A DNA stretch of 31,720 nucleotides, taken from the IMG/VR virus record IMGVR_UViG_3300008267_000216, positions 1-31,720 of that record; one strand, 5' to 3'. Under the pieces are notes generated by a model. That model ran no database searches. It was given only the letters and a program-made list of their open reading frames with translations, and was not told where the DNA came from. This document shows, piece after piece, positions 1-30,360 of this stretch; position 1 is the first letter of the stretch; every line of letters starts with the position of its first letter. This stretch comes from a virus. The translations under genes and the position numbers were made by a program.

Positions 1-225
1 TTCATAGTGAGCAGGCATAGGTTCAAATGCGTGTACCTGCTGAAACAATGTTGACCAATGATCTACGCTGATTCCTACATGTGCTCCTATATCTATTACT
101 GTACAAAAACTATGCACATACTTTAAGGCCTGAATCCTAGAGTTCAATCCAAATAATCTTATGTTCTGGTTAAATTTTTCAAAATAATCTTCATAAGGTA
201 GATTAAACCCATCAACTAAATGCAT
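1..225 (-). CDS. FkbM-type SAM-dependent methyltransferase (partial, N-terminal part only)
   Basis: Reading leftward from the ATG at 225-223 gives 75 open codons that run off the left edge of the window. About residues 38-48 contain VIDIGAHVGIS, followed by HAFEPMPAHYE. This pairing of a glycine-rich SAM-binding motif I with an 'xFEPxP' motif is typical of the FkbM family, which methylates sugar hydroxyls in polysaccharides and glycosides. The start overlaps the stop of the upstream leftward gene by 10 bases (ATGCATTTAG), which implies co-transcription and translational coupling. The catalytic C-terminal half lies outside the window, so substrate and completeness cannot be judged. Confidence 0.8.
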   Translation of the reverse strand, partial: MHLVDGFNLPYEDYFEKFNQNIRLFGLNSRIQALKYVHSFCTVIDIGAHVGISVDHWSTLFQQVHAFEPMPAHYE

Positions 226-1064
226 TGGGTATTTAGTCTACCCAACAATCTTTCAACCGGTCCGCCTGACGCAATCTCGCCTAGTGTCCATTCTGTATGA
301 CATAGATCTTCCAACCACGCGGCGCGATCAGGATGTGGAGGATTTTCTATTTGTGATAAGTCCCAGTTGGCAATTGGACTTGCCAAACTGTCTGGACCAA
401 CAAACACTGGCACACCTGCCATCACGGCTTGCGGCCCTGGCCCTGAGTTCCAATTCAGTACACAGTGAGCACTACTCAACACTCGATCAAAATCAAAATC
501 ATCGTATGATCCCGCAGTAAATCCTGGACGATCAATCAAACACCCTGAAGGTATATTGCATCCACTTCTTGGATGTGATCGAATCACAATAGGTCGATCA
601 GAGTGTTTTCTAATTTCTGCTACAGTTGATTCCAACCATTGATCCATTGGCGGTTGTCCGTGCCACTGCTCACTATCTTGTCGTTGCATGGCAATCACAA
701 TATTAGATCCGTTACGCCATGGTTGTAATTTTAAATTTAAATTGACAGCACGATTAGCGATGAGATTGTCAAAATTGTAACTGCCAATACCAGTGCCATT
801 GATGCCAATCTTCCAGGTTTGCCCACGTTGTATCATGCCAACTTCGGCAACAATCACCGGCTTGCCTTGACGCCTAAATGCTGCGTAAACTTCTTGATTG
901 GGACGCATCCGTCCAGCCCACAGCATACTCCATATCACAGCCACATCGGCGGTGAGGTCATGATAAACCACCGTGTGTCCTTGAGACACAAGTCCTTGGG
1001 CAATGGCTTGAAACACCGGCACTGAATTCTTGGCACCAAAGTTATTAAATAGACTGATCTTCAT
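216..1064 (-). CDS. Capsule-type polysaccharide transferase-like protein (paralogue A)
   Basis: A 282-residue protein read from ATG at 1064 (MKISLFNNFG). An upstream in-frame ATG at 1127 would add 21 residues, but it would overlap the divergent gene and the family N-terminus starts at MKIS. It shares several blocks with the proteins at 3957-4925 and 4922-5734: a 'LxPWRxxGxxxxxxxQR' block, 'IRSHPRSG', a 'NWNSGPGPQAVMAGVPVFV' block near the C-terminus, and a final 'LSQIENP..PDRAAWLEDL' block. The N-x-N-S...A-x-x-G-x-P-V-F-V pattern resembles the nucleotide-sugar-binding half of GT-B polysaccharide transferases such as the KpsS/KpsC group. That comparison is an inference by eye and the substrate is unknown. 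It is probably co-translated with the FkbM methyltransferase downstream. Confidence 0.6.
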   Translation of the reverse strand: MKISLFNNFGAKNSVPVFQAIAQGLVSQGHTVVYHDLTADVAVIWSMLWAGRMRPNQEVYAAFRRQGKPVIVAEVGMIQRGQTWKIGINGTGIGSYNFDNLIANRAVNLNLKLQPWRNGSNIVIAMQRQDSEQWHGQPPMDQWLESTVAEIRKHSDRPIVIRSHPRSGCNIPSGCLIDRPGFTAGSYDDFDFDRVLSSAHCVLNWNSGPGPQAVMAGVPVFVGPDSLASPIANWDLSQIENPPHPDRAAWLEDLCHTEWTLGEIASGGPVERLLGRLNTQCI

Positions 1065-1068
1065 TGTG

Positions 1069-1076
1069 ATTAAATA
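1069..1076 (+). promoter_or_regulatory. Putative late promoter (ATTAAATA)
   Basis: ATTAAATA lies 7 bases before the ATG at 1084, in the divergent gap between two genes. It resembles the T4 late -10 element TATAAATA and matches the TAAATA core found before most other non-overlapping genes in this window. Confidence 0.4.
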
Positions 1077-1083
1077 GTTATAT

Positions 1084-1731
1084 ATGCATAAAATAAACTC
1101 ACACTGGTATTCGTCTGAACCGCCCAATGGCTTCTTCAGCCAACGCCTGCAAGACGTAGTAGATGTACACTATCAGCAACGATATCGATACTATGTGTAT
1201 CAAAACATACCCAGCAAGCGTGTCATGATTGACATTGGTGCCAATATTGGTATATTTGCCAGACCCAGTGCAGAACAGTTCGAACATGTGATATGTTTTG
1301 AACCAGTGCTTAAAAACTTTGAAGTGCTGGAGAAAAATTTAGAAAACTACAGCAACGTTGAACTCTATAATTTAGGTCTCAGCGATAAAGATCAAACAGC
1401 AACATTTGAATTACAAACCCTCAAGTGTGGACACACCACACAAGTAGCAGAGTTTGTGCCCAATCCAGAATTCGAACAACACACTGGAGAGTTAACCACA
1501 CTGGATCGATTCAATTTTGAATCAGTTGATTGGATCAAGATTGACGTTGAAGGTTTTGAAAATGCAGTGTTAGAAGGAAGTCGAGACACCATACAACGTA
1601 ATAGGCCATGGCTGCTGATTGAAGACAACGGTCAACAAGACCAGCATAGACAATGGCTCAATGATTTGTGCGGTCCGTATGAGGCAGCTTTGGTCAAGAG
1701 TAAAAGCAACACAATATGGATACCACTATGA
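1084..1731 (+). CDS. FkbM family methyltransferase
   Basis: A 215-residue class I SAM-dependent methyltransferase. MIDIGANIGIF (about residues 48-58) is motif I, ICFEPVLKNFEVLEKNL (about 69-85) holds the acidic ribose-binding residue, and TTLDRF...VDWIKIDVEGFE (about 138-158) followed by VLEGS is the FkbM signature. Proteins of this family transfer a methyl group to sugar hydroxyls. It begins the rightward block diverging from the leftward gene at 216-1064, and its stop overlaps the next start as ATGA. It is a second FkbM gene within about 1 kb of the partial one at the left edge, and the two clearly differ in sequence. Confidence 0.88.
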   Translation: MHKINSHWYSSEPPNGFFSQRLQDVVDVHYQQRYRYYVYQNIPSKRVMIDIGANIGIFARPSAEQFEHVICFEPVLKNFEVLEKNLENYSNVELYNLGLSDKDQTATFELQTLKCGHTTQVAEFVPNPEFEQHTGELTTLDRFNFESVDWIKIDVEGFENAVLEGSRDTIQRNRPWLLIEDNGQQDQHRQWLNDLCGPYEAALVKSKSNTIWIPL

Positions 1732-2444
1732 ATCATTTACCGTATGAGCGACAAGGATTTAGTCAAAACCATGAAACTGGAATCATTGAATACATGTTAG
1801 CAGGAATATTAGATTCTGACAAAACTTTTGTAGAGATCGGATTCGGTGATGGAACACAAAACATGACTCTAGACTTGCTACATCAAGGATATTCGGGGGT
1901 CGGTATAGATGGCTGGGATTGGGATCCATCCGTGGTTGAACGGTGGCCTGACCAATTGATCAAAATACAACGAATGATTTCTCCCGGAGATGTCGCACAG
2001 TATATCCCAGAACAATATTGGCAACCAGACTTTTTTAGTCTAGACATTGACACTTTTGATTATGAAATAGCATCAACCCTGTTGAAATCAGGATTCCGCC
2101 CAGCCACAGTATGTTGTGAGATCAACAAGCACTTTGGTAATGACTGGGGTAGTTTTCCTTATGTTGAAAACCCAGTAAAAAAAGTCACATACAATAGAAG
2201 ATTTCTTTTTGGTTGTTCATTATCAAAGTACAAAGATTTGTGGTCACAATACGGATATGAGTATTTTACATTTGACACCAGAGGAGTGAATGCATTTTGG
2301 TTCCACCCAGATCGAGTCAGCATAGATTTAGATGTTCCTAGAAATCAAACACTTGATGAGATAGATACCAGTGTGCTAAAACAACAAATTGCCGATCATC
2401 AGTATTGGGGCAATAAACAAAACGAAATATATCAAACAATATGA
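1728..2444 (+). CDS. SAM-dependent methyltransferase-like protein
   Basis: A 238-residue protein. I chose ATG 1728 because it forms the ATGA overlap with the upstream stop that is usual in this genome. An in-frame ATG at 1716 would add MDTT. It contains FVEIGFGDGTQNMTLDLL and GVGIDGWDWD, a motif I plus acidic loop arrangement, then FFSLDIDTFDYEIA, which corresponds to the FkbM 'IKIDVEGxE' position. It looks like a distant FkbM-like or general class I methyltransferase. The C-terminal third (after about residue 160) has no motif I recognise. Its stop overlaps the following glycosyltransferase start (ATGA at 2441-2444). A sugar substrate is inferred from the neighbours. Confidence 0.65.
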   Translation: MNHLPYERQGFSQNHETGIIEYMLAGILDSDKTFVEIGFGDGTQNMTLDLLHQGYSGVGIDGWDWDPSVVERWPDQLIKIQRMISPGDVAQYIPEQYWQPDFFSLDIDTFDYEIASTLLKSGFRPATVCCEINKHFGNDWGSFPYVENPVKKVTYNRRFLFGCSLSKYKDLWSQYGYEYFTFDTRGVNAFWFHPDRVSIDLDVPRNQTLDEIDTSVLKQQIADHQYWGNKQNEIYQTI

Positions 2445-3256
2445 AATACGCAGTACTAACAACATTCCACGCCGAGGGTTACCAACGCTATGCCAGCCGC
2501 ATGATTGATACATTTTTACAAAACTGGCCTCAAGAAGTCGACTTATACGTTTACACAGAAGACTGTACTATTACACAATCTGCACCCAACCTGCATGTGA
2601 GAGACCTACATGCTGTGAGCCCAGAAATTGTGGCATTCAAGCAACGCTGGGGGTCAGACCCTAGAGCACGTGGACTAGTTGCTACAGGACCTGCGGACCG
2701 CAAAGGCAAAGCACCAGGCATAGGTTTCCGTTGGGACGCAATACGATTCAGTCACAAAGCATACTCTGTTGTTCACTGTGCTGCCAACTGCGATGCGGAC
2801 GTGTTGTTCTGGATGGATGCAGACATGGTGTGCCATACACCTATCTCCACGGACTTTATTACCAGTCAAATGCCCGCCAAGATAGGACTGGCCTACCTAG
2901 GACGCGAACGTAAGTTTAGTGAATGTGGTCTGTACGGCATGAACCTACGTGATACTGCTACACTAGCGTGGCTCAAAGAGTTTCAGTTGGCCTATGATTC
3001 AGGACGCCTTATGACCATGGCCGAATGGAATGACTGCTGGGTGTTTGATGAGACTCGCAGCGAAGTGCAAGCCACACACCCTAAATGGCGCCAACTAAAC
3101 TGGAGTGCAGGATTGATCAAAGGAGAAGGGCATCCACTGATCAACACTGCCTGGGGTGCGTATCTTGATCATCTCAAAGGCAAGCGCAAAGAAACTGGTC
3201 GTAGCCCAGCCAAAGACCTTGTTCAACCACGAAGCGAAAGTTATTGGTCTGCTTGA
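2441..3256 (+). CDS. GT-A type glycosyltransferase
   Basis: A 271-residue protein beginning MKYAVLTTFHAEGY. About residues 122-131 read VLFWMDADMV, which carries the D-x-D metal and nucleotide-sugar binding motif of GT-A glycosyltransferases, preceded by the conserved 'RWDAIRFSHKAYSV' helix. It ends convergently with the leftward glycosyltransferase at 3241-3960, and the two coding ends overlap by 16 bases. It is the last gene of the three-gene rightward block starting at 1084. Donor and acceptor sugars cannot be read from the sequence. Confidence 0.75.
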   Translation: MKYAVLTTFHAEGYQRYASRMIDTFLQNWPQEVDLYVYTEDCTITQSAPNLHVRDLHAVSPEIVAFKQRWGSDPRARGLVATGPADRKGKAPGIGFRWDAIRFSHKAYSVVHCAANCDADVLFWMDADMVCHTPISTDFITSQMPAKIGLAYLGRERKFSECGLYGMNLRDTATLAWLKEFQLAYDSGRLMTMAEWNDCWVFDETRSEVQATHPKWRQLNWSAGLIKGEGHPLINTAWGAYLDHLKGKRKETGRSPAKDLVQPRSESYWSA

Positions 3257-3960
3257 TATTCTGCCTTGCTGTGTTTGGCCTTGTAGTGTATTAGATATTC
3301 ACCTAGTACTGTGTGTGGTAAAGGTGTTTTGTAAGGTTTGGCAAATCCCTCACACAAATCATACACTGGGGCATCAGCAAAATTGACAGCAGCTCCCAAC
3401 ACATCATTGTCGTAGAATCTGCGCAGGTCTGCATGATCACATTCAACATAGCGTCTACGATACTCATGTCTAAAAGTTTCAAACTTTGCATGCTTGGCGT
3501 TTACAGCAAACACACCAGTTTCGGGCACAAGCCATGATCCAGGATTGCCTGATTTGTCGGTACTGTAAGTCACGCCCATGTACATGCTGAGATCTTCAGA
3601 CCGCAGGCAGTCCAAGATCAGGCGGGCCGGCAATGCTTTCATAGTGACTACATCAGCATCCAACCACAATATCCAATCTGCAGTGCTGTGATACATGGCA
3701 TGTATCACACTGAATGCTTTCTTGCTGAACTTTTTCACTTGCACACCATAGGCAGTGTCTTTTTGCAATTCATGATACTTTGGGTCCACTTGCAAGTTAA
3801 AATCAATCTGCTTGATTCTTGCATGGTCGGGCAAGACAAAACCTTCTACATAACAGGTCAACTCAAACTGTGAATCCCAGTGTTCTAAGAAACTGCTTAC
3901 ACAATCCTTGCCTATTAGGTCATAGTATCTTTGATCAAAGCTGGTAATAATTTCTATCAT
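3241..3960 (-). CDS. GT-A type glycosyltransferase
   Basis: A 239-residue protein from ATG 3960 (MIEIITSFDQRYYD). This start gives an ATGA overlap with the stop of the gene at 3957-4925, whereas the longer in-frame ATG at 4050 lies inside that neighbour. DWILWLDADVVTMKALP contains the D-x-D motif, preceded by VQVKKFSKKAFSVIHAMY, a block also found in the rightward enzyme at 2441-3256. The two convergent genes are therefore related in architecture. It is the last gene of a five-gene leftward run (7181 down to 3241) with overlapping starts and stops. Confidence 0.75.
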   Translation of the reverse strand: MIEIITSFDQRYYDLIGKDCVSSFLEHWDSQFELTCYVEGFVLPDHARIKQIDFNLQVDPKYHELQKDTAYGVQVKKFSKKAFSVIHAMYHSTADWILWLDADVVTMKALPARLILDCLRSEDLSMYMGVTYSTDKSGNPGSWLVPETGVFAVNAKHAKFETFRHEYRRRYVECDHADLRRFYDNDVLGAAVNFADAPVYDLCEGFAKPYKTPLPHTVLGEYLIHYKAKHSKAEYQADQ

Positions 3961-4925
3961 TTTTCCACGAACTTTCTCATGTGTGCCCAGGCTGTGCCGT
4001 CTTGGAGTTCTTGGTGACTCCAGTGGAACTGGCTGAGACGTTGTATCCATGCGTCACGGTCCGGTGTTATGGGAGTTTCTATTTTGTCCAATCTTGTTTC
4101 AGCAATTTCTCGCACTTGACTGCGTTCGGGATCAGTGACAAAAACTGGAATACCTTCAATTGCTGCACCCACTGCAGGGCTGGAATTATGATTGACCACC
4201 GCCCAACAATTTTTTAAATCATGCTCTAGCGATGTGTCTGGTGTGCTGAGTTCCACATTGAGCAGTCTGCGGCCCACACACAGTTTCATCAATCGATCGC
4301 AATATTTCTTGGCCCGCTTGTCGCCAGGGTGCGCACGTATTCTAATGGGCCGGTTGGTATATCTGCGCAATTGCAGTATGATCTTCATTGCCCAGTCCAG
4401 TACTTCAACTCCGCCCATGCTCCAGCCACCGTCACGTTGCAAACACAACAGGACATGATTGCCTTGTGTGCGCCAAGGTTTGAGATGTATGTTGAGATTT
4501 TGTTGCACTGCTGACCACCGAGACGGGTCAGGTGCAGTGTCACAGTATTGTCCTGTGTTGGGGAATATGCCATCAAAACTGTAGCGCAGCCAGTAGCCAG
4601 GATTGGTTGTGTTTTTGTACAGAAAAAGATTGCTGTCAGCAATCACAGTGCGCCCGTTGTACACACGTTGCCCGTCCAGTATCTGCTGACGCAGTTGCAG
4701 ATGTGGGGCAGTTTTGCCATGTTCGTGTACCCAACCCAGTATCACAGCCACGTCACTGGGCTGATAGGTAGCGTCATCTACAATAACACCTTCGTCGCCG
4801 CAGGCCTGTACACCTTGAATAAAAAACTTCAAAGTATTGAGTTTGTCTGTGGCAGCTTTAAGGCTTTGTTCAGACGTGTATTCTAATTTTTTTGGCAGCG
4901 TGGCCAAATAGCTTACGACTTTCAT
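3957..4925 (-). CDS. Capsule-type polysaccharide transferase-like protein (paralogue B)
   Basis: A 322-residue protein related to those at 216-1064 and 4922-5734. Shared blocks are 'IHLKPWRTQGNHVLLCLQRDG', 'RPIRIRAHPGD', 'VVNHNSSPAVGAAIEGIPVFV' and 'LDKIETPITPDRDAWIQRLSQFHW', in the same order as in paralogue A. The N-x-N-S...G-x-P-V-F-V segment fits the donor-binding part of a GT-B capsule-type transferase. This is an inference: no catalytic residue has been established here. ATGA overlaps on both sides (4922-4925 and 3957-3960) place it in the middle of a tightly coupled leftward operon. Confidence 0.6.
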   Translation of the reverse strand: MKVVSYLATLPKKLEYTSEQSLKAATDKLNTLKFFIQGVQACGDEGVIVDDATYQPSDVAVILGWVHEHGKTAPHLQLRQQILDGQRVYNGRTVIADSNLFLYKNTTNPGYWLRYSFDGIFPNTGQYCDTAPDPSRWSAVQQNLNIHLKPWRTQGNHVLLCLQRDGGWSMGGVEVLDWAMKIILQLRRYTNRPIRIRAHPGDKRAKKYCDRLMKLCVGRRLLNVELSTPDTSLEHDLKNCWAVVNHNSSPAVGAAIEGIPVFVTDPERSQVREIAETRLDKIETPITPDRDAWIQRLSQFHWSHQELQDGTAWAHMRKFVEK

Positions 4926-5734
4926 AGTTCTTGCATCATTCTAAAAGCTGTACCATCGCGCAGTTCGCGCACATGATATTGACCATAGGCCATACTATGG
5001 CACCATGCATTTAATTTGTCTTGATCTGCCCAGTAAGGATTGTCAATTTGACTCAACTGCGTATTGGCCACAGGTTGTGCTATATGGCTAGGAGCCAGTA
5101 CAAATGCTGGCACTCCTGACAAAATAGATTCTACTGCCGCAATACTGTTAAATGTCACAAGAGCATGAACGTCTTGGGTCAGCACCTGCTGCAATGGCGC
5201 AGTTGATACCCGGTCAATTCGCTTTGGTGCTCGTTGACGCACTTCCACCGGACGGTTGGTGTATTTTTTTATTTCTTCAATAGTTTGTTGCACCCACTGT
5301 GCTTGATCTATTCCATAATACCTACAGGGCTTTTCGTCAGGTGCCGCAATAATAATTTTTTTGCCAAATTTTCTTGACTGTAGGTTGATGCCAAGAGCTT
5401 GCCAACGATCGTTTGGACGGGGTCGTATTTCAGTTTGTTGCAAATCGTTCTTGACAATGCGATGATACAGTTTATTGCCCACAGGGTTTAGTCGGTTGAT
5501 GTTGTTGCCAACATAGCCAGAATCCACGTAGTAAAAATCTTTGCCGTCGGCCAGGCATTTTTGCATGATCTTGTATTTCAAGATACCACGGAGCACTGGA
5601 GTCATGCTGTCTTGCAGTACATCATACCTGTAGTCAAAAAAGTCTGTGTTAGTGGGTTCTTTACCTGCGCTATTGGCCAACATGTTGATGTATTCATCTT
5701 CGCCACCTTTGCTAAGAAAAATAAAATTTGTCAT
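4922..5734 (-). CDS. Capsule-type polysaccharide transferase-like protein (paralogue C)
   Basis: A 270-residue protein, MTNFIFLSKGGEDEY. I chose ATG 5734 because AAGGAG (5746-5741) sits just upstream and because the start shares a base with the upstream stop (TGATG). An in-frame ATG at 5755 would place the ribosome-binding site inside the gene. It is the most divergent of the three paralogues. It keeps 'RPVEVRQRAP' where the others have 'IRxHP', 'LVTFNSIAAVESILSGVPAFVLAP' for the N-x-(N)-S...G-x-P block, and 'LSQIDNPYWADQDKLNAW'. The loss of the H-P pair may mean altered activity. Confidence 0.58.
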   Translation of the reverse strand: MTNFIFLSKGGEDEYINMLANSAGKEPTNTDFFDYRYDVLQDSMTPVLRGILKYKIMQKCLADGKDFYYVDSGYVGNNINRLNPVGNKLYHRIVKNDLQQTEIRPRPNDRWQALGINLQSRKFGKKIIIAAPDEKPCRYYGIDQAQWVQQTIEEIKKYTNRPVEVRQRAPKRIDRVSTAPLQQVLTQDVHALVTFNSIAAVESILSGVPAFVLAPSHIAQPVANTQLSQIDNPYWADQDKLNAWCHSMAYGQYHVRELRDGTAFRMMQEL

Positions 5735-6420
5735 CAGGTGCTCCTTTGTTGACAATAGTCAGTCAGTAGTCTTTCTTTGTGCCAATCTTCTGCAAAATCT
5801 CCCACATCTGCAAACTCATGAAAGCACGGTGTGCCCAAGGTATAGTGTACCAGTTTGGCCAAAGGATTCCATTCATATTCAACATCCAACCAGTTCCACT
5901 CTGGGGGCAGTTCACCAATGCGTTCATCGTCTATCCAGGAGAATCTGTGCAGTTCAGACCCTGTTGATTTTTGCACAAACTCAGGAGTTAGTTTGCGGTT
6001 GGGATAACTGTTGCAGTTCCACAGTATCACACTTGACCAATTCTTTCTTGGATAGTCTTCGTTCTTAGACCCAAGATACTTTTCAGTCATGCGTGTTTTG
6101 TAGTCGTGTTTGACCACCATGACGTCGTTGTAAGGACTTTGTAGATTCCATAGTTCTACAATGTCTCCGCGCAGGATCATGTCGCCATCAATGAATATGG
6201 CCCAGCCCTGGTAGTCCATCAAGTGTGGCACAAGAAAACGGCTGTAGATAAATTGATTGCTGCCATCAGTGTGTGTTTCATCGTAGTCTTGAAACAAGTT
6301 TAGAGCCACTGGGATTATGGCCACTGGCTGGCTGGCTTGCCTAATGATTGAGTTCACACACACGTGATATGCTACGGCTTCCCTAGGATCGTATCCTACA
6401 AACACAGGAATTGGTTTCAT
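5734..6420 (-). CDS. GT8-like glycosyltransferase
   Basis: A 228-residue protein. It starts MKPIPVFVGYDPREAVAYHV and continues SIIRQAS, then YSRFLVPHL and WAIFIDGDMILRGDI. This order of N-terminal 'xFxGYDxRE', an 'RF.vP.L' helix and a D-x-D ('DGD') motif is characteristic of GT8-related glycosyltransferases and their phage relatives. WNCNSYPNRKLTPE and a late TLGTPCFHEF segment are also family-like. It overlaps the nucleotidyltransferase-cupin gene upstream by ATGA (6417-6420) and the next gene by one base, so it sits mid-operon. Confidence 0.8.
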   Translation of the reverse strand: MKPIPVFVGYDPREAVAYHVCVNSIIRQASQPVAIIPVALNLFQDYDETHTDGSNQFIYSRFLVPHLMDYQGWAIFIDGDMILRGDIVELWNLQSPYNDVMVVKHDYKTRMTEKYLGSKNEDYPRKNWSSVILWNCNSYPNRKLTPEFVQKSTGSELHRFSWIDDERIGELPPEWNWLDVEYEWNPLAKLVHYTLGTPCFHEFADVGDFAEDWHKERLLTDYCQQRST

Positions 6421-7181
6421 CGACGTTCAATATCTTCCTCAACACAGCAATCACCGTATTGTATTTCAATCAATTTGAGTGGTTGGTCAGTTTCATTGCA
6501 CAACTGATGCCATTCGTTTGTTTTGATAAATGTGTGTTCATGTATGACAAGACTGCACTTGACTTCTTGATCAGTTGAAGCTTCATCCAAGGTGTACACC
6601 GTGGCCGCGCCTTCAGCCACAAACCAAAATTCTGCACGTTGATCATGTCGTTGCATGCTTAGGCATGTTTTGGGCATCACAGTAAGTTCTTTAAGTTTGG
6701 TATTGGCACCTACTTCATGCAACACACGATAGTAACCCCATGCACGATCAGTTTTTGGTGTTTTCCATTCAGTCAGTATCCATGAACTTGAGTTTAATTT
6801 GTTTTCGCCACCTACTCCAAAGCAAAAGTCTACATCATCAAATACCATTTCGGGAATATTGTCGGCTGTGCGATCTCCGCCATTGGCAAAGATAAATTTA
6901 GTGCCCGGACGTATGTAGAAGTCCCGTACCGAACGGATGGCATCGATAGCAGTGTCATCATCATCATTGAACTCAATTACCTTGTCTACCATGCGTAAGT
7001 TTTCAATGATAGCCCGCCGCTCAGTAGCAGACATAAACGGTCGACCTTTTTTGCGTGTGAGCCATGCATCGCTGTTGATACCAACCACAAGTCTATCGCC
7101 TAGTGCTCGGGCTGCTTCAAAATAGGCAATGTGTCCCGAATGTAGCGGATCAAATCCACCTGTAACTAATACTATTTTCAT
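6417..7181 (-). CDS. Nucleotidyltransferase (RfaE/TagD-like) fused to a sugar-isomerase-type cupin
   Basis: A 254-residue two-domain protein. Residues 1 to about 135 form a cytidylyl/adenylyltransferase domain: GGFDPLHSGH (8-17) has the HxGH nucleotide-binding motif, MSATERRAII (about 50-59) is the ISSTxR-type motif, and FANGGDR is typical of HldE/RfaE C-terminal domains. Residues from about 155 to the end form a cupin, MSMQRHDQRAEFW-like, ending IQYGDCCVEEDIERR, which matches the tail of type II mannose-6-phosphate isomerase/ManC cupins. Such a fusion could activate a sugar or polyol phosphate and isomerise or bind a sugar phosphate. It is the first gene of the leftward operon and has a TATAAATA element directly upstream. 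Confidence 0.82.
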   Translation of the reverse strand: MKIVLVTGGFDPLHSGHIAYFEAARALGDRLVVGINSDAWLTRKKGRPFMSATERRAIIENLRMVDKVIEFNDDDDTAIDAIRSVRDFYIRPGTKFIFANGGDRTADNIPEMVFDDVDFCFGVGGENKLNSSSWILTEWKTPKTDRAWGYYRVLHEVGANTKLKELTVMPKTCLSMQRHDQRAEFWFVAEGAATVYTLDEASTDQEVKCSLVIHEHTFIKTNEWHQLCNETDQPLKLIEIQYGDCCVEEDIERR

Positions 7182-7186
7182 GTAGA

Positions 7187-7194
7187 TATTTATA
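7187..7194 (-). promoter_or_regulatory. Late promoter (exact TATAAATA), leftward
   Basis: The minus strand reads TATAAATA, identical to the T4 late promoter -10 element. It lies only 5 bases before the ATG of the nucleotidyltransferase-cupin gene, so a transcript starting at the usual distance would have almost no leader. Confidence 0.55.
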
Positions 7195-7204
7195 GGCTAA
7201 GATT

Positions 7205-7789
7205 ATGAGTAAATACAAAATGAATCACTTTTATCAAAACATCGACGGATTTATGAGTCATAAAAACACAGTAATGTTGGACATTGTGTTGGACTTGTTC
7301 CCAGCAGGAGGCTGTTGGGTCGAGCTGGGTGCGTGGACTGGCAAAAGCACAGCCTATTGCGTGATTGAATTGTTGCAGAAAAAAAAGTTTGGTAAATTCT
7401 ACTGTGTGGACACCTGGGACGGCGGCATAGAACTAGCTGAACAAGACATAATAAAATCACAAACTTTGGAACAAGTGTTTGCACACAATGTGGCGCCGGT
7501 ATTGGATCTTATTGTACCTATCAAAAGTTTGAGCTGGGACGCAGCCAATCAGTTTGACGATGGCAGTGTGGACTTTTGTTACGTTGATGCTGGACATACC
7601 TACGATTGTGTGATAAAAGATCTGCATGCCTGGTGGCCAAAAATACAACCCGGTGGCCAATTTGGCGGTGATGACTACACCAAGGGGCATCCAGGAGTAC
7701 AAAAAGCTGTGTGGGAATTTTTTGGCAATCGTAATCTCAAAGTACGCCGCTCTGGACGCTGCTGGTTGGTGGACAAGCCCAGATTTTGA
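7205..7789 (+). CDS. Class I SAM-dependent methyltransferase
   Basis: A 194-residue protein. CWVELGAWTGKSTAY (about residues 36-50) is the SAM-binding motif I, KFYCVDTWDGG holds the acidic residue after strand 2, and VDFCYVDAGHTYDCVIKDL followed by WWPKIQPGGQFGGDDY matches the post-I/II region of the methyltransferase-24 type often found beside sugar-modifying enzymes. The substrate is unknown. It diverges from the leftward operon across a 23-base gap. The last residues (LKVRRSGRCWLVDKP) are basic. Confidence 0.75.
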   Translation: MSKYKMNHFYQNIDGFMSHKNTVMLDIVLDLFPAGGCWVELGAWTGKSTAYCVIELLQKKKFGKFYCVDTWDGGIELAEQDIIKSQTLEQVFAHNVAPVLDLIVPIKSLSWDAANQFDDGSVDFCYVDAGHTYDCVIKDLHAWWPKIQPGGQFGGDDYTKGHPGVQKAVWEFFGNRNLKVRRSGRCWLVDKPRF

Positions 7790-7808
7790 CAACAGCGGTA
7801 TCTAGCTA

Positions 7809-7816
7809 CTTAAATA
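7809..7816 (+). promoter_or_regulatory. Putative late promoter (CTTAAATA)
   Basis: CTTAAATA lies 4 bases before the ATG at 7821 in a 31-base gap. It shares the TAAATA core of the other late-type motifs in the window. Confidence 0.38.
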
Positions 7817-7820
7817 TCCC

Positions 7821-8453
7821 ATGACATGGCTTAAACATTATCGTGAACAATATTTTGATTGTTTGAACTCAAACACCAGCGGCGCCAAGCGTGGCTTGCA
7901 TGAAGGTTTGTATTGCCGTGCAGATGGCTTTGATTTGATATTTGCCTACCTGGAAAGTCTCCAGCAATCTCAATACCACATTGTGGAAACTGGTACTCTG
8001 CGTACCCCAGGCAACTGGAAAGATGGACAAAGTGCTCGATTGTTTGTGGAGTTTGTCGAGCACCACAGCGGCACAGTAAGATCAGTAGACATTGATCCTG
8101 CGGCAGTTGACATTGCTCAGGCAACCTTGCCCAATGCTTGTTTCCTTGCCAGTTGCAGTGACAGTGTGACTTGGCTATTGCATCAAAACGATCTTGACCA
8201 AGTAGATTTGTTTTATCTAGACTCTTGGGACGTAAAATGGAAAAACGATCATGACAGCGCCGAACACCACTTGAAAGAATTTCAAGTCATTGAATCACAC
8301 ATCAAACCAGGTGCTGTTGTGGCCATAGATGACAATGCTAGATTTTTAGAAGACAATCGTAGAACAGGCAAAGGTCGACGCATTGTCGAATATCTAGCAC
8401 AACAAGGCAAACAGCCCATTTACGATGCTTACCAAATAATTTTTAAATTTTAA
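7821..8453 (+). CDS. Class I SAM-dependent methyltransferase-like protein
   Basis: A 210-residue protein. YHIVETGTLRTPGNW (about residues 52-66) fills the motif I position, VRSVDIDPAAVDIA (about 90-103) supplies the ribose-binding acid, VDLFYLDSWD is the next strand, and IKPGAVVAIDDNARF the strand after. The order fits a Rossmann methyltransferase, although motif I is degenerate (ETGT instead of GxGxG). It heads a rightward run with the GT17-like and D-x-D glycosyltransferases, one base apart from the former. The substrate is probably a glycan or a precursor, inferred from context only. Confidence 0.62.
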   Translation: MTWLKHYREQYFDCLNSNTSGAKRGLHEGLYCRADGFDLIFAYLESLQQSQYHIVETGTLRTPGNWKDGQSARLFVEFVEHHSGTVRSVDIDPAAVDIAQATLPNACFLASCSDSVTWLLHQNDLDQVDLFYLDSWDVKWKNDHDSAEHHLKEFQVIESHIKPGAVVAIDDNARFLEDNRRTGKGRRIVEYLAQQGKQPIYDAYQIIFKF

Positions 8454-8454
8454 C

Positions 8455-9237
8455 ATGATAATAGATACTACACTTTTCAACAACGAGTTTGACATGCTGG
8501 ATATACGTCTGGAGCTCACCAAACACTACGTGGACAGTTGGGTCATCTGTGAAGGCAATCGTACCATGAGCGGTCGACCCAAACCATTCTATCTGTCTGA
8601 CAACATGGCTCGCTACAGCCACTGGGGAGATCGACTGCGTGTGGTGCGCCTTGACATTCCTGAGACCTGGACCAACTGGGACATCGAAAACGGACAGCGC
8701 TCGGCCTTGTTAGAAGGCTATCAAGATTGCAGTGATGACGACATTGTGATGCACAGCGACTTGGATGAAATTATTAATCCTGAGTTATGGCCAGAAATAT
8801 TACAAACGGTCAACACTGCCAATCAGCCTGTGACTTGCACACTTGACATGTATATCTATCGGTGGGATCAACAAGTGGATCGTAAGTGGACTGGAAATGT
8901 TGTGGCCAAAAAACACATGTTTGCAGACCCATGCAAACTATACAAGGGTTTGCAGAGTGGAGTGGGACATGCCCAAAAGAAAAAAGACCGTAGTCACTGT
9001 GTACTGTTCCCCAAAACTGCTGGTTGGCATTGGGGCTGGATTGGCAATGATGACATCATCAAGAGCAAGGCCTGGAGTTGCATTGAGACACAACATCGAG
9101 ATGCAGATGAAATGCTAGAAACATTCAAACGCCTTGACGGCACTGCTATCAATCACAAAACTGCCACGCACCAAGTTGACCCTCAGTATCCCCCACTAGT
9201 TGATGCTGTGTTACGTCAATATCCCTATTGGTCATGA
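8455..9237 (+). CDS. GT17-like glycosyltransferase
   Basis: A 260-residue protein. The N-terminus MIIDTTLFNNEFDMLDIRLE is the family opening, followed by VDSWVICEGNRTMSGRPKP and DIENGQRSALLEG. DDDIVMHSDLDEIINPE (about residues 97-113) carries the S-D-x-D-E motif of GT17 (N-acetylglucosaminyltransferase III-like) proteins and their bacterial and phage homologues. The C-terminal half keeps W-H-W-G-W, seen in these enzymes. It starts one base after the preceding stop and ends with an ATGA overlap into the next glycosyltransferase. Confidence 0.83.
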   Translation: MIIDTTLFNNEFDMLDIRLELTKHYVDSWVICEGNRTMSGRPKPFYLSDNMARYSHWGDRLRVVRLDIPETWTNWDIENGQRSALLEGYQDCSDDDIVMHSDLDEIINPELWPEILQTVNTANQPVTCTLDMYIYRWDQQVDRKWTGNVVAKKHMFADPCKLYKGLQSGVGHAQKKKDRSHCVLFPKTAGWHWGWIGNDDIIKSKAWSCIETQHRDADEMLETFKRLDGTAINHKTATHQVDPQYPPLVDAVLRQYPYWS

Positions 9238-9977
9238 GCAAACACTCTCCACAACATGATCAGATTGTAGATTGCGCCTGTGTAATCCACGGCACAGGTT
9301 ATGACTGGCAGTATGTGGAAAAATTGTACAACATGTTGTCACGACATCTGCACATGGGTATACGTTTTCATGTGTACACCGAGCAGGATAGGCCAGTACC
9401 GTCACACATGATCAAACATGTGGTAAAAGAATGGCCAGGTATTTCAGGACCCAAACGTGAATGGTGGTACAAGATGCAGTTGTTCAATTCTGAATATCAC
9501 GCAGGCAACTTGCTGTACTTTGATCTTGATTGTGTGATCATAAATGATTTGAGTTGGATTCCAGCATTGAGTACAGAATGCTTTTGGACCATTAGAGACT
9601 TCAGGTATCTCCAACGCAAAACACATTCAGGAATGAACTCAAGTGTAATGTGGTGGAATGTTTCAAAATTTGCGCATGTGTGGCACGAGTTTGATCAGTT
9701 AGACATCAACAGAACAGTTGTAAAATACCCCGGAGACCAAGACTACTTGGGAGTGGTAATTGACCCCATGCAACGCAGATACTTTGACCAACAACATCTA
9801 CAAAGTTGGCGCTGGCAGGTGGCCGATGGTGGCTATGACTTTGCTGGACGAAAACCCAACAAGCCTGGTACAGGTGCCAGTCCATACGTTGGCGGCGATA
9901 CCAGCATATTGGTATTCCACGGGCGCCCCAAGCCGCACGAAATAAATGATCCTGTTGTTGCAAACAACTGGTGCTAG
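9234..9977 (+). CDS. Glycosyltransferase with D-x-D motif
   Basis: A 247-residue protein. ATG 9234 (MSKHSPQHDQ) overlaps the upstream TGA as ATGA and is preferred over the in-frame ATG at 9228. CACVIHGTGYDWQYVEKLYNML, then WYKMQLFNSEYHAGNLLYFDLDCVIINDL: the 'YFDLD' motif following a 'W.KMqlF' helix is typical of GT-A enzymes of the glycosyltransferase 8/32-like phage group. MNSSVMWWN and YPGDQDYL also match that group. It is the last gene of the island; the first of the repeated promoters begins 2 bases after its TAG. Confidence 0.75.
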   Translation: MSKHSPQHDQIVDCACVIHGTGYDWQYVEKLYNMLSRHLHMGIRFHVYTEQDRPVPSHMIKHVVKEWPGISGPKREWWYKMQLFNSEYHAGNLLYFDLDCVIINDLSWIPALSTECFWTIRDFRYLQRKTHSGMNSSVMWWNVSKFAHVWHEFDQLDINRTVVKYPGDQDYLGVVIDPMQRRYFDQQHLQSWRWQVADGGYDFAGRKPNKPGTGASPYVGGDTSILVFHGRPKPHEINDPVVANNWC

Positions 9978-26823: not shown

Positions 26824-27072
26824 ATGCAAAAGAAAACTAAAAGCATATTGGAAGAACTGGACAGTCTGTACATAGAACGTGATCGTAAAGCCATCATTGA
26901 AACTCGCGCCAGCAATCTAATAGAAACAGCCATTCGTTTGCTGGAACAAATTGACGCTGAATTCTCGCCTGACCAAGCAGAAAATCTTCAGCGCAAACTG
27001 CTGAATGCAATACGTCACCGAGATACCACTAAATTCTCAAGGTCCGTTAGGAGAACCAATGCAGATATTTGA
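26824..27072 (+). CDS. Small helical protein of unknown function
   Basis: An 82-residue protein (MQKKTKSILEELDSLYIERD) that looks almost entirely helical and charged, with possible coiled-coil heptads through IETRASNLIETAIRLLEQIDAEF. No signal peptide or membrane span. AAAGG lies upstream. Its last 14 bases overlap the start of the Pro/Ala-rich protein gene, so the two are probably co-translated. No family recognised; the late-type promoter and neighbours suggest a virion-assembly role. Confidence 0.65.
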   Translation: MQKKTKSILEELDSLYIERDRKAIIETRASNLIETAIRLLEQIDAEFSPDQAENLQRKLLNAIRHRDTTKFSRSVRRTNADI

Positions 27073-28447
27073 ACTCACACAGTCCAAAAAGCCTATCCTC
27101 AAAGAGTACGACCCCAACAGATCTCCACAAAAGAAAAATTTTGGTACTGGTGTAGGCCCAGGTGTACAACCACAGATGACTGGCACACCCAGAATGAAAG
27201 GAGCCCCGCAGGCCTCTGCCGCACCACAACTGCCAGCACCTGCAACAGGTGCTGTAAAACCAGCTGCCACTGCCCCTGAACTACAAACAATTGATACACC
27301 GGCGCGATTGTCTGGACCCGAACCTACAAAACAAATTGGCACAAATTATGATCCCAATGTTGTTGACGTTGTGGCCAAAGAAAAATCTCCTCAACAAGCC
27401 TTGGCAGCACCTACTCCAGCACCTACTCCAGCACCTACTCCAGCACCTGCTCCAGCACCTGCTCCAGCACCAGCAGCGTCACCCAGTCAGCCCACATACA
27501 ATGTGCCATTGGCCAATGTGCCTGCGCAACCTGCCATTATGCCGACAAACATGTCAGCCACAGGTGCTCCTGTAGCTGCACCAGTAGTGGCAGCACCAAG
27601 CACACCTGGTATCAAAGGATCTAGAACTGGTGCTATTGTAGGGGCATTAGGTAACAAATTACAACAAAAACTGGCTGCTGATGTTGGACTCAGTGGTGTT
27701 CCTGACACAGGTGACAACAATGCTTATGGTGACCAACGTGCGGCTGCTGCCAAGGCCGCTGGACCGCTAATTAGCCAACAGGCACGTCAAGAATTAGCCA
27801 AATGGAATCAAGCAGTGGCCAACACAGTCAACCAAGCCGGTATCAACGTTGATCCAACTATGCGTAAAAAGAACCCAACTGCAGGCATCGGACAACTGTC
27901 CCCGACCAGCCGCAATGCGCTAAAGCTCAGTTTGATGAATCAAGTAAATTCAAACTTTTTGCAAAAACAATTAGGCAACAACTACAAAGAACTTCCAGAA
28001 TATGTAGATGACACTGCACAACAAGAAGCAGCCGCACAAATAGCAAAATTAGACAATGCTATAAACGCTATATTAAATTTTAATGCTCCTAAAAGTGACG
28101 CAGCGGCAGAGTTACAACGCTGGCAAGATTTATCACAAGCCACGTATGACATGCTATCATTGATGCAGTTTCACCCCAAGACCGTGACACGGCGGGTACC
28201 TAACGCACCTGGTGTTAAATCTACTGCACCGGGCACTGCACCCGCCAACCCTGAAGTAGAACAAGTATTGGTAAGGATGGGATATTCTGATTCGCAGGCT
28301 AGAGTGTTGGCTAAAAAAGTACCACAAGGTACAAGCACTCAGGAGGCCGTAAAACAAATACTTCAAGGTAGAATAGCAGAATCTCTGACTTGGAGTCAAA
28401 GTTTTGATCCCAGCCGAACATTATTGAAAAAAATTAGACAACTATGA
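27059..28447 (+). CDS. Pro/Ala-rich protein of unknown function, probably late
   Basis: A 462-residue protein. ATG 27059 (MQIFELTQSKK) is set by TAGGAG (27048-27053) 5 bases upstream; a longer in-frame ATG at 27005 has no such site. The N-terminal about 230 residues are low-complexity, rich in Pro, Ala, Thr and Gln, with a P-A-P-T repeat (residues about 117-138). The C-terminal half is helical, with AGIGQLSPTSRNALKLSLMNQVNSNFLQ and VLVRMGYSDSQARVLAKKVP, which resembles a small UBA-like helical bundle. The C-terminus RIAESLTW...LLKKIRQL overlaps the next gene (ATGA). A scaffold or head-associated role is possible but unproven. Confidence 0.68.
   Translation: MQIFELTQSKKPILKEYDPNRSPQKKNFGTGVGPGVQPQMTGTPRMKGAPQASAAPQLPAPATGAVKPAATAPELQTIDTPARLSGPEPTKQIGTNYDPNVVDVVAKEKSPQQALAAPTPAPTPAPTPAPAPAPAPAPAASPSQPTYNVPLANVPAQPAIMPTNMSATGAPVAAPVVAAPSTPGIKGSRTGAIVGALGNKLQQKLAADVGLSGVPDTGDNNAYGDQRAAAAKAAGPLISQQARQELAKWNQAVANTVNQAGINVDPTMRKKNPTAGIGQLSPTSRNALKLSLMNQVNSNFLQKQLGNNYKELPEYVDDTAQQEAAAQIAKLDNAINAILNFNAPKSDAAAELQRWQDLSQATYDMLSLMQFHPKTVTRRVPNAPGVKSTAPGTAPANPEVEQVLVRMGYSDSQARVLAKKVPQGTSTQEAVKQILQGRIAESLTWSQSFDPSRTLLKKIRQL
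27407..27475 (+). repeat. 12-base tandem repeat (GCACCTACTCCA)
   Basis: Five units of 12 bases (GCACCTACTCCA, the last two with GCT for ACT) plus a partial unit encode the A-P-T-P / A-P-A-P run. Low-complexity linker, likely to vary in copy number. Confidence 0.85.
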
Positions 28448-30360
28448 AAAGCCTACGCACACTACTAGAAGGCGGCAATGTGTTCAAAGACGCAGATGGC
28501 CAACCACTTACAGGTCGCATCAATCAAAGTGATGTGCCTGCCACAGTGGCCTGGATTGAACAACTAACTGGCATAGAATTTCCACGTGAACGCTGGCTGG
28601 GCTCAACTGGCAAAGCTGCCACATCGGGTGACATGGACCTGGCTGTGGATGCAAATGAAATATCTAAAGATCAATTGGCCGCAAGCCTAACACAGTGGAT
28701 AGTGGGGCACAAACTACCGCCTGCAGAATGGATCAAAAAAGGCGGAGAAGTTCACTTACGCACACCCATACAGGGACGCCCTGACCTGGGTTATGTTCAA
28801 ACCGACTTCATGTTCTTTCCCAATTTGGACTGGGGCACATTCTACTACAATCAAGGCGCAGGATCAGCCTACAAAGGCATGAACCGTGCAGTGCTGATGT
28901 CAAGCCTGGCCAAGTATCACGGACTTACGCTGGGCAGTAATGGCGTGATTAGCCGAGCTACCAAGCAATTGGTCACAATGGATGTTGATCAAGCAGCAAA
29001 AATGATTCTTGGACCTGGAGCCACAAGAGACAGTCTCAGCACTGTGGAAACCATATTTGCCGCACTAGCAAAAGACAAAGATCGAGAAGTCAAGATCAAA
29101 GACTTCCGTGAGTATTTGACCCGAGAAGGCTTGCCGCAACCTGATGCTGTGACAGAAAATACAGACACTTACTTCTTGGCAAGACTACGTGATAGAATTG
29201 TGAACCAAGGCATGCAACCTCTAGTGGAAACTGAGCCAGCCAATCCTTATCGTATCTACGAAGCTGACGAAGCCGGGGTTGGTGGCAAAGCCAAGGGCAT
29301 TGAACACTTGGAAGACTATGTGTTCCGTAACGGATTACCCGGTGTGACCAAAGCATTACAAATTGTGGCAGCGGCCGCTGCTGCACCCACCAAGACCACC
29401 ACTGTGAAATGGGACGGAAAACCTGCTGTGATATTCGGGCGCAAACCTGACACAGGACAGTTTGTGCTGACAGATGGATCAGGCTTTGAAGCCAAGGGCT
29501 ATGACGGCCTGGCCACAAGCCCACGCATGATGGCTGACATTCAAAGCACACGTTCTGGTGCTAGAGGCGAGCTGATTCAATTGTATGCCACATTGTGGCC
29601 CAAGCTAGAAGCAGCCTTGCCCACCAACTTTCGTGGTTATGTCAAGGGCGATCTGTTGTACATGTCGACACCACCATTAGAATCTGGCAACTATGTGTTC
29701 ACGCCCAACACAGTGCCCTATAGAATTCCAGCAAAAACTACACTGGGACAACGTATTGGTGCCAGCAACACAGGTATTGCCATGCACTCCATGTATGCAG
29801 ACGCAGGCGATGCCCGTCAGCCCTTGAGTGGTGTGCGTTTTAATGAAGTGCCCGGTTTGTTGTTGATTGAACCCATTGGTGGCAAAGAAATTGTGCCTGA
29901 TGCTGGGTTGATCAAACAAATCCAATCTGTGGCCAACAGTGGGGATGGCCGCGCCATTGCCACACTGTTCAACCCTGCAGAATTGCGAGCTCAGCAGATC
30001 ACAGATCTAGCAAAACTGTGCGTGGACTACATCAACTTCAGAATCAAAACCAGTGGCGACTTTGACAACTTGTTGCCTGGGTTTGGTGAGTGGTTGCAGA
30101 CCAAGGTCACACCCAAGAAATTTGCCAACATTGTAGAATACCTAAAAAGTCCAGCCAGCAATACAGGTGCACTGGCAGCGGCATTTACCCTGTTCTTGTT
30201 GTTGCATGATTTGAAACTGGACATACTGAAACAGTTGGATTTAAAAGATCCCGGGCACGAGGGTTGGGTAATGGCCACTGATGCAGGCTATGCCAAAGCA
30301 GTGAATAGATTTGATTTCTCAGCAAGAAATGCGGCACAAAACAATCCTCAACCGGGGTAA
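28444..30360 (+). CDS. Nucleotidyltransferase-like and ligase-like two-domain protein
   Basis: A 638-residue protein. The N-terminal domain has WLGSTGKAATSGDMDLAVD (G53-S54, D63, D65) and GYVQTDFMFF (D121), the G-S...D-x-D...D layout of the polymerase-beta nucleotidyltransferase fold. The C-terminal domain has TTVKWDGKPAVIFG (K322-x-D324-G325), which resembles motif I (KxDG) of the DNA/RNA ligase superfamily, followed by GYVKGDLLY (400-406), in the place of a motif III. Both assignments rest on motifs only. The N-terminus MKSLRTLLEGGN contains L-x-E-G, like the gp21-protease-cut capsid-targeting ends of T4 internal head proteins. It overlaps the preceding gene by ATGA. Confidence 0.65.
   Translation: MKSLRTLLEGGNVFKDADGQPLTGRINQSDVPATVAWIEQLTGIEFPRERWLGSTGKAATSGDMDLAVDANEISKDQLAASLTQWIVGHKLPPAEWIKKGGEVHLRTPIQGRPDLGYVQTDFMFFPNLDWGTFYYNQGAGSAYKGMNRAVLMSSLAKYHGLTLGSNGVISRATKQLVTMDVDQAAKMILGPGATRDSLSTVETIFAALAKDKDREVKIKDFREYLTREGLPQPDAVTENTDTYFLARLRDRIVNQGMQPLVETEPANPYRIYEADEAGVGGKAKGIEHLEDYVFRNGLPGVTKALQIVAAAAAAPTKTTTVKWDGKPAVIFGRKPDTGQFVLTDGSGFEAKGYDGLATSPRMMADIQSTRSGARGELIQLYATLWPKLEAALPTNFRGYVKGDLLYMSTPPLESGNYVFTPNTVPYRIPAKTTLGQRIGASNTGIAMHSMYADAGDARQPLSGVRFNEVPGLLLIEPIGGKEIVPDAGLIKQIQSVANSGDGRAIATLFNPAELRAQQITDLAKLCVDYINFRIKTSGDFDNLLPGFGEWLQTKVTPKKFANIVEYLKSPASNTGALAAAFTLFLLLHDLKLDILKQLDLKDPGHEGWVMATDAGYAKAVNRFDFSARNAAQNNPQPG

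Follow-up and report, generated by a model that had tools for sequence, protein, structure and literature searches.

The window, by which we mean the whole 31,720-nucleotide stretch of IMG/VR virus record IMGVR_UViG_3300008267_000216 that was analysed, encodes a 638-residue protein in which a domain resembling DNA polymerase family X is joined, through a disordered linker, to a ligase-superfamily-like domain of the family DUF6267, the two being preceded by a putative head-targeting peptide (Table 1). The reading that we prefer, tentatively and at a little short of an even chance, is that this protein is a head-targeted, protease-processed precursor of two injected enzymes for DNA gap filling and sealing. 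Packaging and processing, as judged from sequence comparisons, seem reasonably likely; a role in DNA repair is possible, with the balance leaning somewhat against it, and the choice of DNA rather than RNA as the substrate is the weakest step.

Table 1. Positions in the window of the two-domain gene, its domains, motifs and putative processing sites, and of the gene upstream.
Feature	Residues	Position	Strand	Basis or remark
Main ORF: tag, polymerase X-like domain, disordered linker, DUF6267 ligase-like domain	1-638	28444..30360	+	638 aa
N-terminal extension MKSLRTLLE, putative head-targeting peptide with protease site after E9	1-9	28444..28470	+	E9 76/76, L7 76/76
Family X-like nucleotidyltransferase domain (G53-S54, D63, D65, D121, S141, R148)	10-255	28471..29208	+	AlphaFold and Foldseek PDB, invariant triad
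Linker	256-285	29209..29298	+	Predicted disordered at 256-280, pLDDT <50
LVE, putative internal protease site	260-262	29221..29229	+	L 75/76, E 76/76, next residue variable
IYE, putative internal protease site	271-273	29254..29262	+	I/L/V and E 76/76
DUF6267 domain, ligase-superfamily-like, with helical insertion	286-638	29299..30357	+	PF19782; model pLDDT 92; Foldseek
Motif I KWDG, K322 the candidate AMP acceptor		29407..29418	+	K, D, G 55/55
Motif III-like GDLLY, D403 in place of ligase Glu		29647..29661	+	D 55/55
Motif IV EGWV, E606		30259..30270	+	E, G, V 55/55
Motif V-like K618-A-V-N-R622		30295..30309	+	K and R 55/55, V 54/55
Upstream gene, start probably 27059, giving MQIFELTQSKKPILKE, a second tag-like N-terminus		27059..28447	+	Relatives' starts; 4-base overlap with main start

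The main ORF starts with ATG, is free of internal stops and had 526 confirmed relatives in IMG/VR, the best 80 of the 526 sharing 74-94% identity with it. Comparison with three of its relatives gave dN/dS values of 0.06-0.08, indicating strong purifying selection, and across 76 full-length sequences residues E9, D63, D65, D121, K322, D324, G325, D403, E606, G607, K618 and R622 were invariant. An AlphaFold2 model of the whole protein, built from an alignment of 80 sequences, reached a mean pLDDT of 89 and consisted of two confident domains and the disordered linker, with low confidence at residues 1-7. The motifs on which the original prediction had been based were all found at the residues given for them, namely G53-S54, D63-M-D65 and D121 within the first 125 residues, K322-W-D-G325, G402-D-L-L-Y406, and the N-terminus MKSLRTLLEGGN.

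The phage is T4-like: the window encodes a UvsW-like helicase, a Toprim primase and a DnaB-type helicase, and a gp23-type capsid protein is encoded by a relative whose contig spans 212 kb. The ORF itself lies downstream of the primase- and DnaB-type helicase genes, outside any structural cluster. A gp21-type protease gene was found in three related records and was not found in the incomplete contigs of the closest relatives, one of which has a capsid gene at the contig edge. In an 88-kb relative, the gp23-type capsid gene apparently breaks off some 115 codons in, an intron or insertion being a possible cause (G004:C1:75528-75656, locus L265). For the gene immediately upstream of the main ORF, comparison with its relatives, which start MQIFE[IL]T and often extend to [LIV]xE, suggests that the annotated-length start at 27005 is probably wrong and that 27059 fits better. 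Its product (P0002) had no match in the phage collection or in Pfam; by eye it is rich in Pro and Ala and has, close to its end, a stretch resembling UBA. At the other end of the window, positions 216-9977 hold a run of genes that are glycosyltransferase- and methyltransferase-like by eye, as well as a cytidylyltransferase-like gene at 6417-7181, perhaps for surface or DNA modification.

Computation supported the nucleotide-adding domain that had been predicted in the N-terminal part of the protein, with DNA polymerase family X as its closest likeness. All 50 matches listed in a Foldseek search of the PDB with the whole model belonged to this family, the best being Pol lambda (E 2.7e-4, probability 1.00), behind which Pol mu, Pol beta, TdT and Thermus PolX appeared among the matches listed; we assigned them to residues 10-255 from the motifs. 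In the predicted model, domain 1 displayed the family X palm and thumb. The G53-S54 pair, the DxD and the third Asp of the family X active site were invariant in the 76 close sequences, and the catalytic triad (Asp63, Asp65 and Asp121) was also invariant in 31 divergent domain-1 homologues. The palm-like domain begins at residue 10 of the AlphaFold model, with no 8-kDa lyase domain N-terminal to it, and profile and single-sequence searches of the solved structures in the PDB returned only chance matches, with no polymerase or ligase among them. Going by the model, domain 1 is very likely family X-like.

The second domain matched PF19782 (DUF6267) with 93.8 bits against a curated cut-off of 27. 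Relatives of this family are present in 471 phage records, mostly from marine cyanophages, and no mention of DUF6267 was found in the literature searched. The proposal that this domain is ligase-like, first made from K-x-D-G, held in its motifs: a search for further ligase motifs found the motif IV EGWV and the V-like K618-A-V-N-R622, and K322, D324, G325, D403, E606, G607, V609, K618 and R622 were invariant in 55 divergent DUF6267 proteins. Structure gave it weaker backing. Modelled alone (pLDDT 92), the domain had archaeal and human DNA ligases as its best Foldseek matches, at E 2.6e-3 and a TM of only 0.21, with T4 Rnl1, T4 DNA ligase, African swine fever virus ligase and tRNA ligase ranked lower, and hhalign against a single T4 Rnl2 sequence gave no match. 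A helical insertion separates the IIIa-like and IV regions, and the model ends in a helix soon past motif V; since the C-terminal OB domain is thus missing, we did not file the domain as a DNA ligase proper. We consider that it probably belongs to the ligase superfamily. Ligation by the predicted enzyme is uncertain because of the Asp in motif III, the K-x-V-x-R in motif V and the missing OB domain, and confidence is lowered further by Gly345, which in the window's clade replaces a Lys that is near-invariant elsewhere in DUF6267 (50/55). Capping, which the original prediction had offered as an alternative activity, gained no specific support, and mRNA capping was rejected, capping enzymes falling far below ligases among the structural matches of the DUF6267 model. 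A hit to PHROG 4419, annotated 'head protein' (E 0.25), was regarded as chance.

Among 253 loci with a match, which were picked by searches for these domains so that the counts describe the sample and not nature, the two domains were fused in 96 and encoded by adjacent genes in 52, while DUF6267 was alone in 89 and domain 1 lacked a detected partner in 11. In the remaining five, two of which came from Agrobacterium phage Atu_ph07, domain 1 lay beside a distinct ligase-like gene. One fusion protein had the reversed domain order, and another (L225 5344-7791) joined three domains, one cytidylyltransferase-like, one polymerase X-like and one DUF6267, and had an ITE site at each junction. Since domain 1 is paired with ligase-like proteins of two different families, nucleotide addition and end joining can be argued to act in concert. 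The distinct ligase-like set of the jumbo phages aligned with DUF6267 at only 35% probability (hhalign) and weakly matched RNA_ligase PF09414 (E 0.001-0.085). Together with a weak match of one DUF6267 member to RNA_lig_T4_1 (E 0.017) and the lack of an OB domain after motif V, this match speaks for an RNA substrate, such that the same packaged precursor would extend cleaved tRNA or other RNA by nucleotides and then seal it, countering at once the RNA-cutting defences of the host. We regard this as unlikely: the matches listed for domain 1 were family X DNA polymerases and not CCA-adding or poly(A) enzymes, DNA ligases outranked RNA ligases for domain 2, and the genes adjoin those for primase and helicase. 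DNA was preferred over RNA because of the family X likeness of domain 1 and the replication genes that the genes adjoin.

We then compared the occurrence of known DNA ligase families with that of the two domains. Cyanomyoviruses have been reported to lack homologues of the gp30 DNA ligase (reviewed in PMC2984593). In the nine DUF6267-only phages tested, the PF01068 ligase was absent from eight, the exception being S-CRM01, and PF01653 was absent from all nine. Kyanoviridae-type records with DUF6267 and without domain 1 (W01-W04, W06, W07, G005 and G006) had neither the ATP- nor the NAD-dependent DNA ligase family. PF01068 was present in all seven records tested in which the two domains are paired or fused (G001-G004, G008, G009 and G011), and, of two records with domain 1 and no detected DUF6267, in G007 and not in the partial G010. 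Because ligase presence differs between these sets, which comprise few records, some partial, marine phages may use DUF6267 as their ligase, and in the window's lineage it may be a packaged enzyme with a specialised role. So simple a split does not suit HTVC008M and Melnitz-3, in which a tag-like start goes with the lack of a ligase. Substitution for DNA ligase as the main role in the window's phage was set aside, since close relatives carry the PF01068 ligase.

These distributions also bear on whether the protein is packaged at all. It could be an unpackaged intracellular replication or repair enzyme, DUF6267 serving as the ligase where there is none and domain 1 serving repair, with the LxE sites otherwise explained. 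The reported lack of gp30, the near-absence of both ligase families from the DUF6267-only phages, the location beside gp41 and UvsX, and the several cyanophage members that are untagged are in keeping with such an enzyme. We nevertheless hold it to be improbable, about as much so as the RNA substrate, given that a PF01068 ligase is present in each of the seven window-type records that have the two domains paired or fused, and that LxE is conserved at both domain boundaries beyond the needs of folding.

The T4 prohead protease cuts after [LI]xE, and the sequences of T4 gp23 and gp24 carry LTE and LRE at their known cleavage points. The N-terminus had been described as capsid-targeting-like, and sequence comparison agreed, in that the extension ends in a T4-protease-like LxE conserved across the family. 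Among 39 domain-1 clusters below 80% identity, 32 had [LIVM]xE immediately before the GG that opens domain 1, and the other seven start M-GG or nearly so, or hold domain 1 inside a fusion. In rearranged fusions the site reappears at the junction, as LTE|GG in L214 and ITE|GG in L225, and across the clusters the middle residue of the triplet is unconstrained, which would be expected of a cleavage site. A site lay within 16 residues before the DUF6267 core in 16 of 17 split and 9 of 15 fused clusters, compared with 11.6% of control windows, being near the N-terminus in split proteins and in the linker in fused ones. The other six fused clusters, all from the window's clade, have conserved [LI]xE farther up the linker, at 260-262 and 271-273. 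Because of these additional sites in the disordered linker, the precursor would probably be cut into two enzymes, beyond trimming of its start.

Against packaging, an [LIV]xE triplet is common by itself. A strict tag pattern (M[KR]xxxFIxE type) occurred in unrelated neighbours at 13 of 170 downstream N-termini and at 2 of 2149 internal methionines, with a modest contrast between downstream and upstream genes (p 0.011); with a loose pattern the two groups of genes were not told apart (p 0.08). Since the loose pattern failed and the strict one separated only modestly, the main basis of the tag claim is position-specific conservation. An N-terminus of the form MRAxxF[IL]xE was common to many unrelated neighbours in six loci (L180, L186, L187, L194, L197 and L218); among its bearers were 'YYGQGTRWCTAA' proteins and members of a second family that is nucleotidyltransferase-like.

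Published virion data from relatives concern genes near DUF6267. Proteins encoded just downstream of it were detected in virions of S-SZBM1 (S-SZBM1_140, _139 and _136; PMC9146016), S-CREM2 (ORF154-156; PMC10665884) and S-SM1 (a cytidylyltransferase; PMC3037559), and PMC10665884 cites the S-CRM01 kinase, also downstream of DUF6267, as a virion protein. The authors of the S-CREM2 and S-SCSM1 studies considered that such proteins were possibly contaminants of the virion preparation. Several of the cytidylyltransferases and the S-CRM01 kinase have tag-like starts. The DUF6267 protein of S-SZBM1 is untagged (MAKNTHLEHLED) and absent from the virion list; the absence counts against packaging of the family, although, for this one phage, it fits the tag idea. 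In Atu_ph07, the homologue gp65 falls in a virion-rich gene cluster (CDS 31-76), with 29 proteins detected (PMC6102473). Directly downstream of the domain-1 gene of this phage (L082 7591-12480, at about 45.7-50.6 kb), there are at least six adjacent paralogues that by eye resemble ADP-ribosyltransferases. Nearly all of them begin M[RK]WxQL[TIN]E, and the array looks like a set of head-packaged effectors.

Those paralogues with their tag-like starts and the protein kinase neighbour in S-CRM01, all of which are likely to act on the host, lend something to the idea of an injected protein that modifies the host by nucleotide transfer to host proteins, and the departures of motifs III and V from active ligases to that of a catalytically worn-down internal head component. 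Either is quite improbable in our estimation, as the catalytic residues of both domains are fully invariant and a polymerase-like domain is repeatedly paired with a ligase-like one, which in jumbo phages comes from another ligase-like family.

In the packaged-precursor reading that we favour, the MKSLRTLLE peptide would direct the precursor into the prohead core, where a protease of the T4 gp21 type would cut after E9 and, in the linker, after E262 and/or E273. Cleavage would free a minimal family X-like polymerase or nucleotidyltransferase of about 250 residues and a DUF6267 ligase-superfamily enzyme of about 365-375 residues. Both would be ejected with the genome and could set to work immediately on gaps, ends or nicks in the DNA, domain 1 adding nucleotides and domain 2 sealing via AMP on K322.

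A testable function is thereby proposed for DUF6267, and the family is also a candidate to be the DNA ligase that cyanomyoviruses are said to lack (PMC2984593). On this reading, DNA-repair enzymes would be delivered by phage heads in addition to host modifiers and inhibitors of defence, and fused enzymes could be separated by the prohead protease as in a polyprotein. The broadest version, in which many T4-like phages carry a head-packed polymerase X-ligase polyprotein as a repair kit and DUF6267 is the missing ligase of cyanophages, is unlikely.

Compared with known systems, domain 1 shares with DNA polymerase family X (Pol lambda, Pol beta, TdT and the minimal viral Pol X) the palm-type fold, the GS...DxD...D active site and a GS..Y....R stretch past the third Asp. 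It differs from that family in having no lyase domain, which the minimal viral forms also lack, in being fused to a ligase-like domain, and in a sequence too distant for profile detection in the PDB. Residues 286-629 clearly belong to DUF6267 (PF19782; PHROG 455), but the cyanophage members lack domain 1, whereas the window's protein is fused to it and has the tag and linker sites. With ATP-dependent DNA and RNA ligases, covalent nucleotidyltransferases that gave the DUF6267 model its best structural matches, the domain has in common the KxDG motif I, the EGxV motif IV and the III- and V-like positions; it departs from them in the Asp, not Glu, of motif III, the K-x-V-x-R, not K-x-K, of motif V, the helical insertion and the absence of the OB domain. 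As in the T4 internal head proteins (IPI-III and Alt), whose capsid targeting sequence is cut by gp21, a short N-terminal peptide ends in LxE, and unrelated neighbours bear such a tag too. Unlike the T4 proteins, the window's protein is predicted to comprise repair-type enzymes, with extra inter-domain sites as in a polyprotein. Finally, a primase-type polymerase and a ligase share a single chain in LigD, and Pol X and a ligase are encoded by separate genes in African swine fever virus. The window's protein likewise combines polymerase-like and ligase-like functions, on a single polypeptide or within the same repair pathway, but its polymerase-like domain is family X-like and not primase-type as in LigD, and its two enzymes are fused, unlike those of African swine fever virus.
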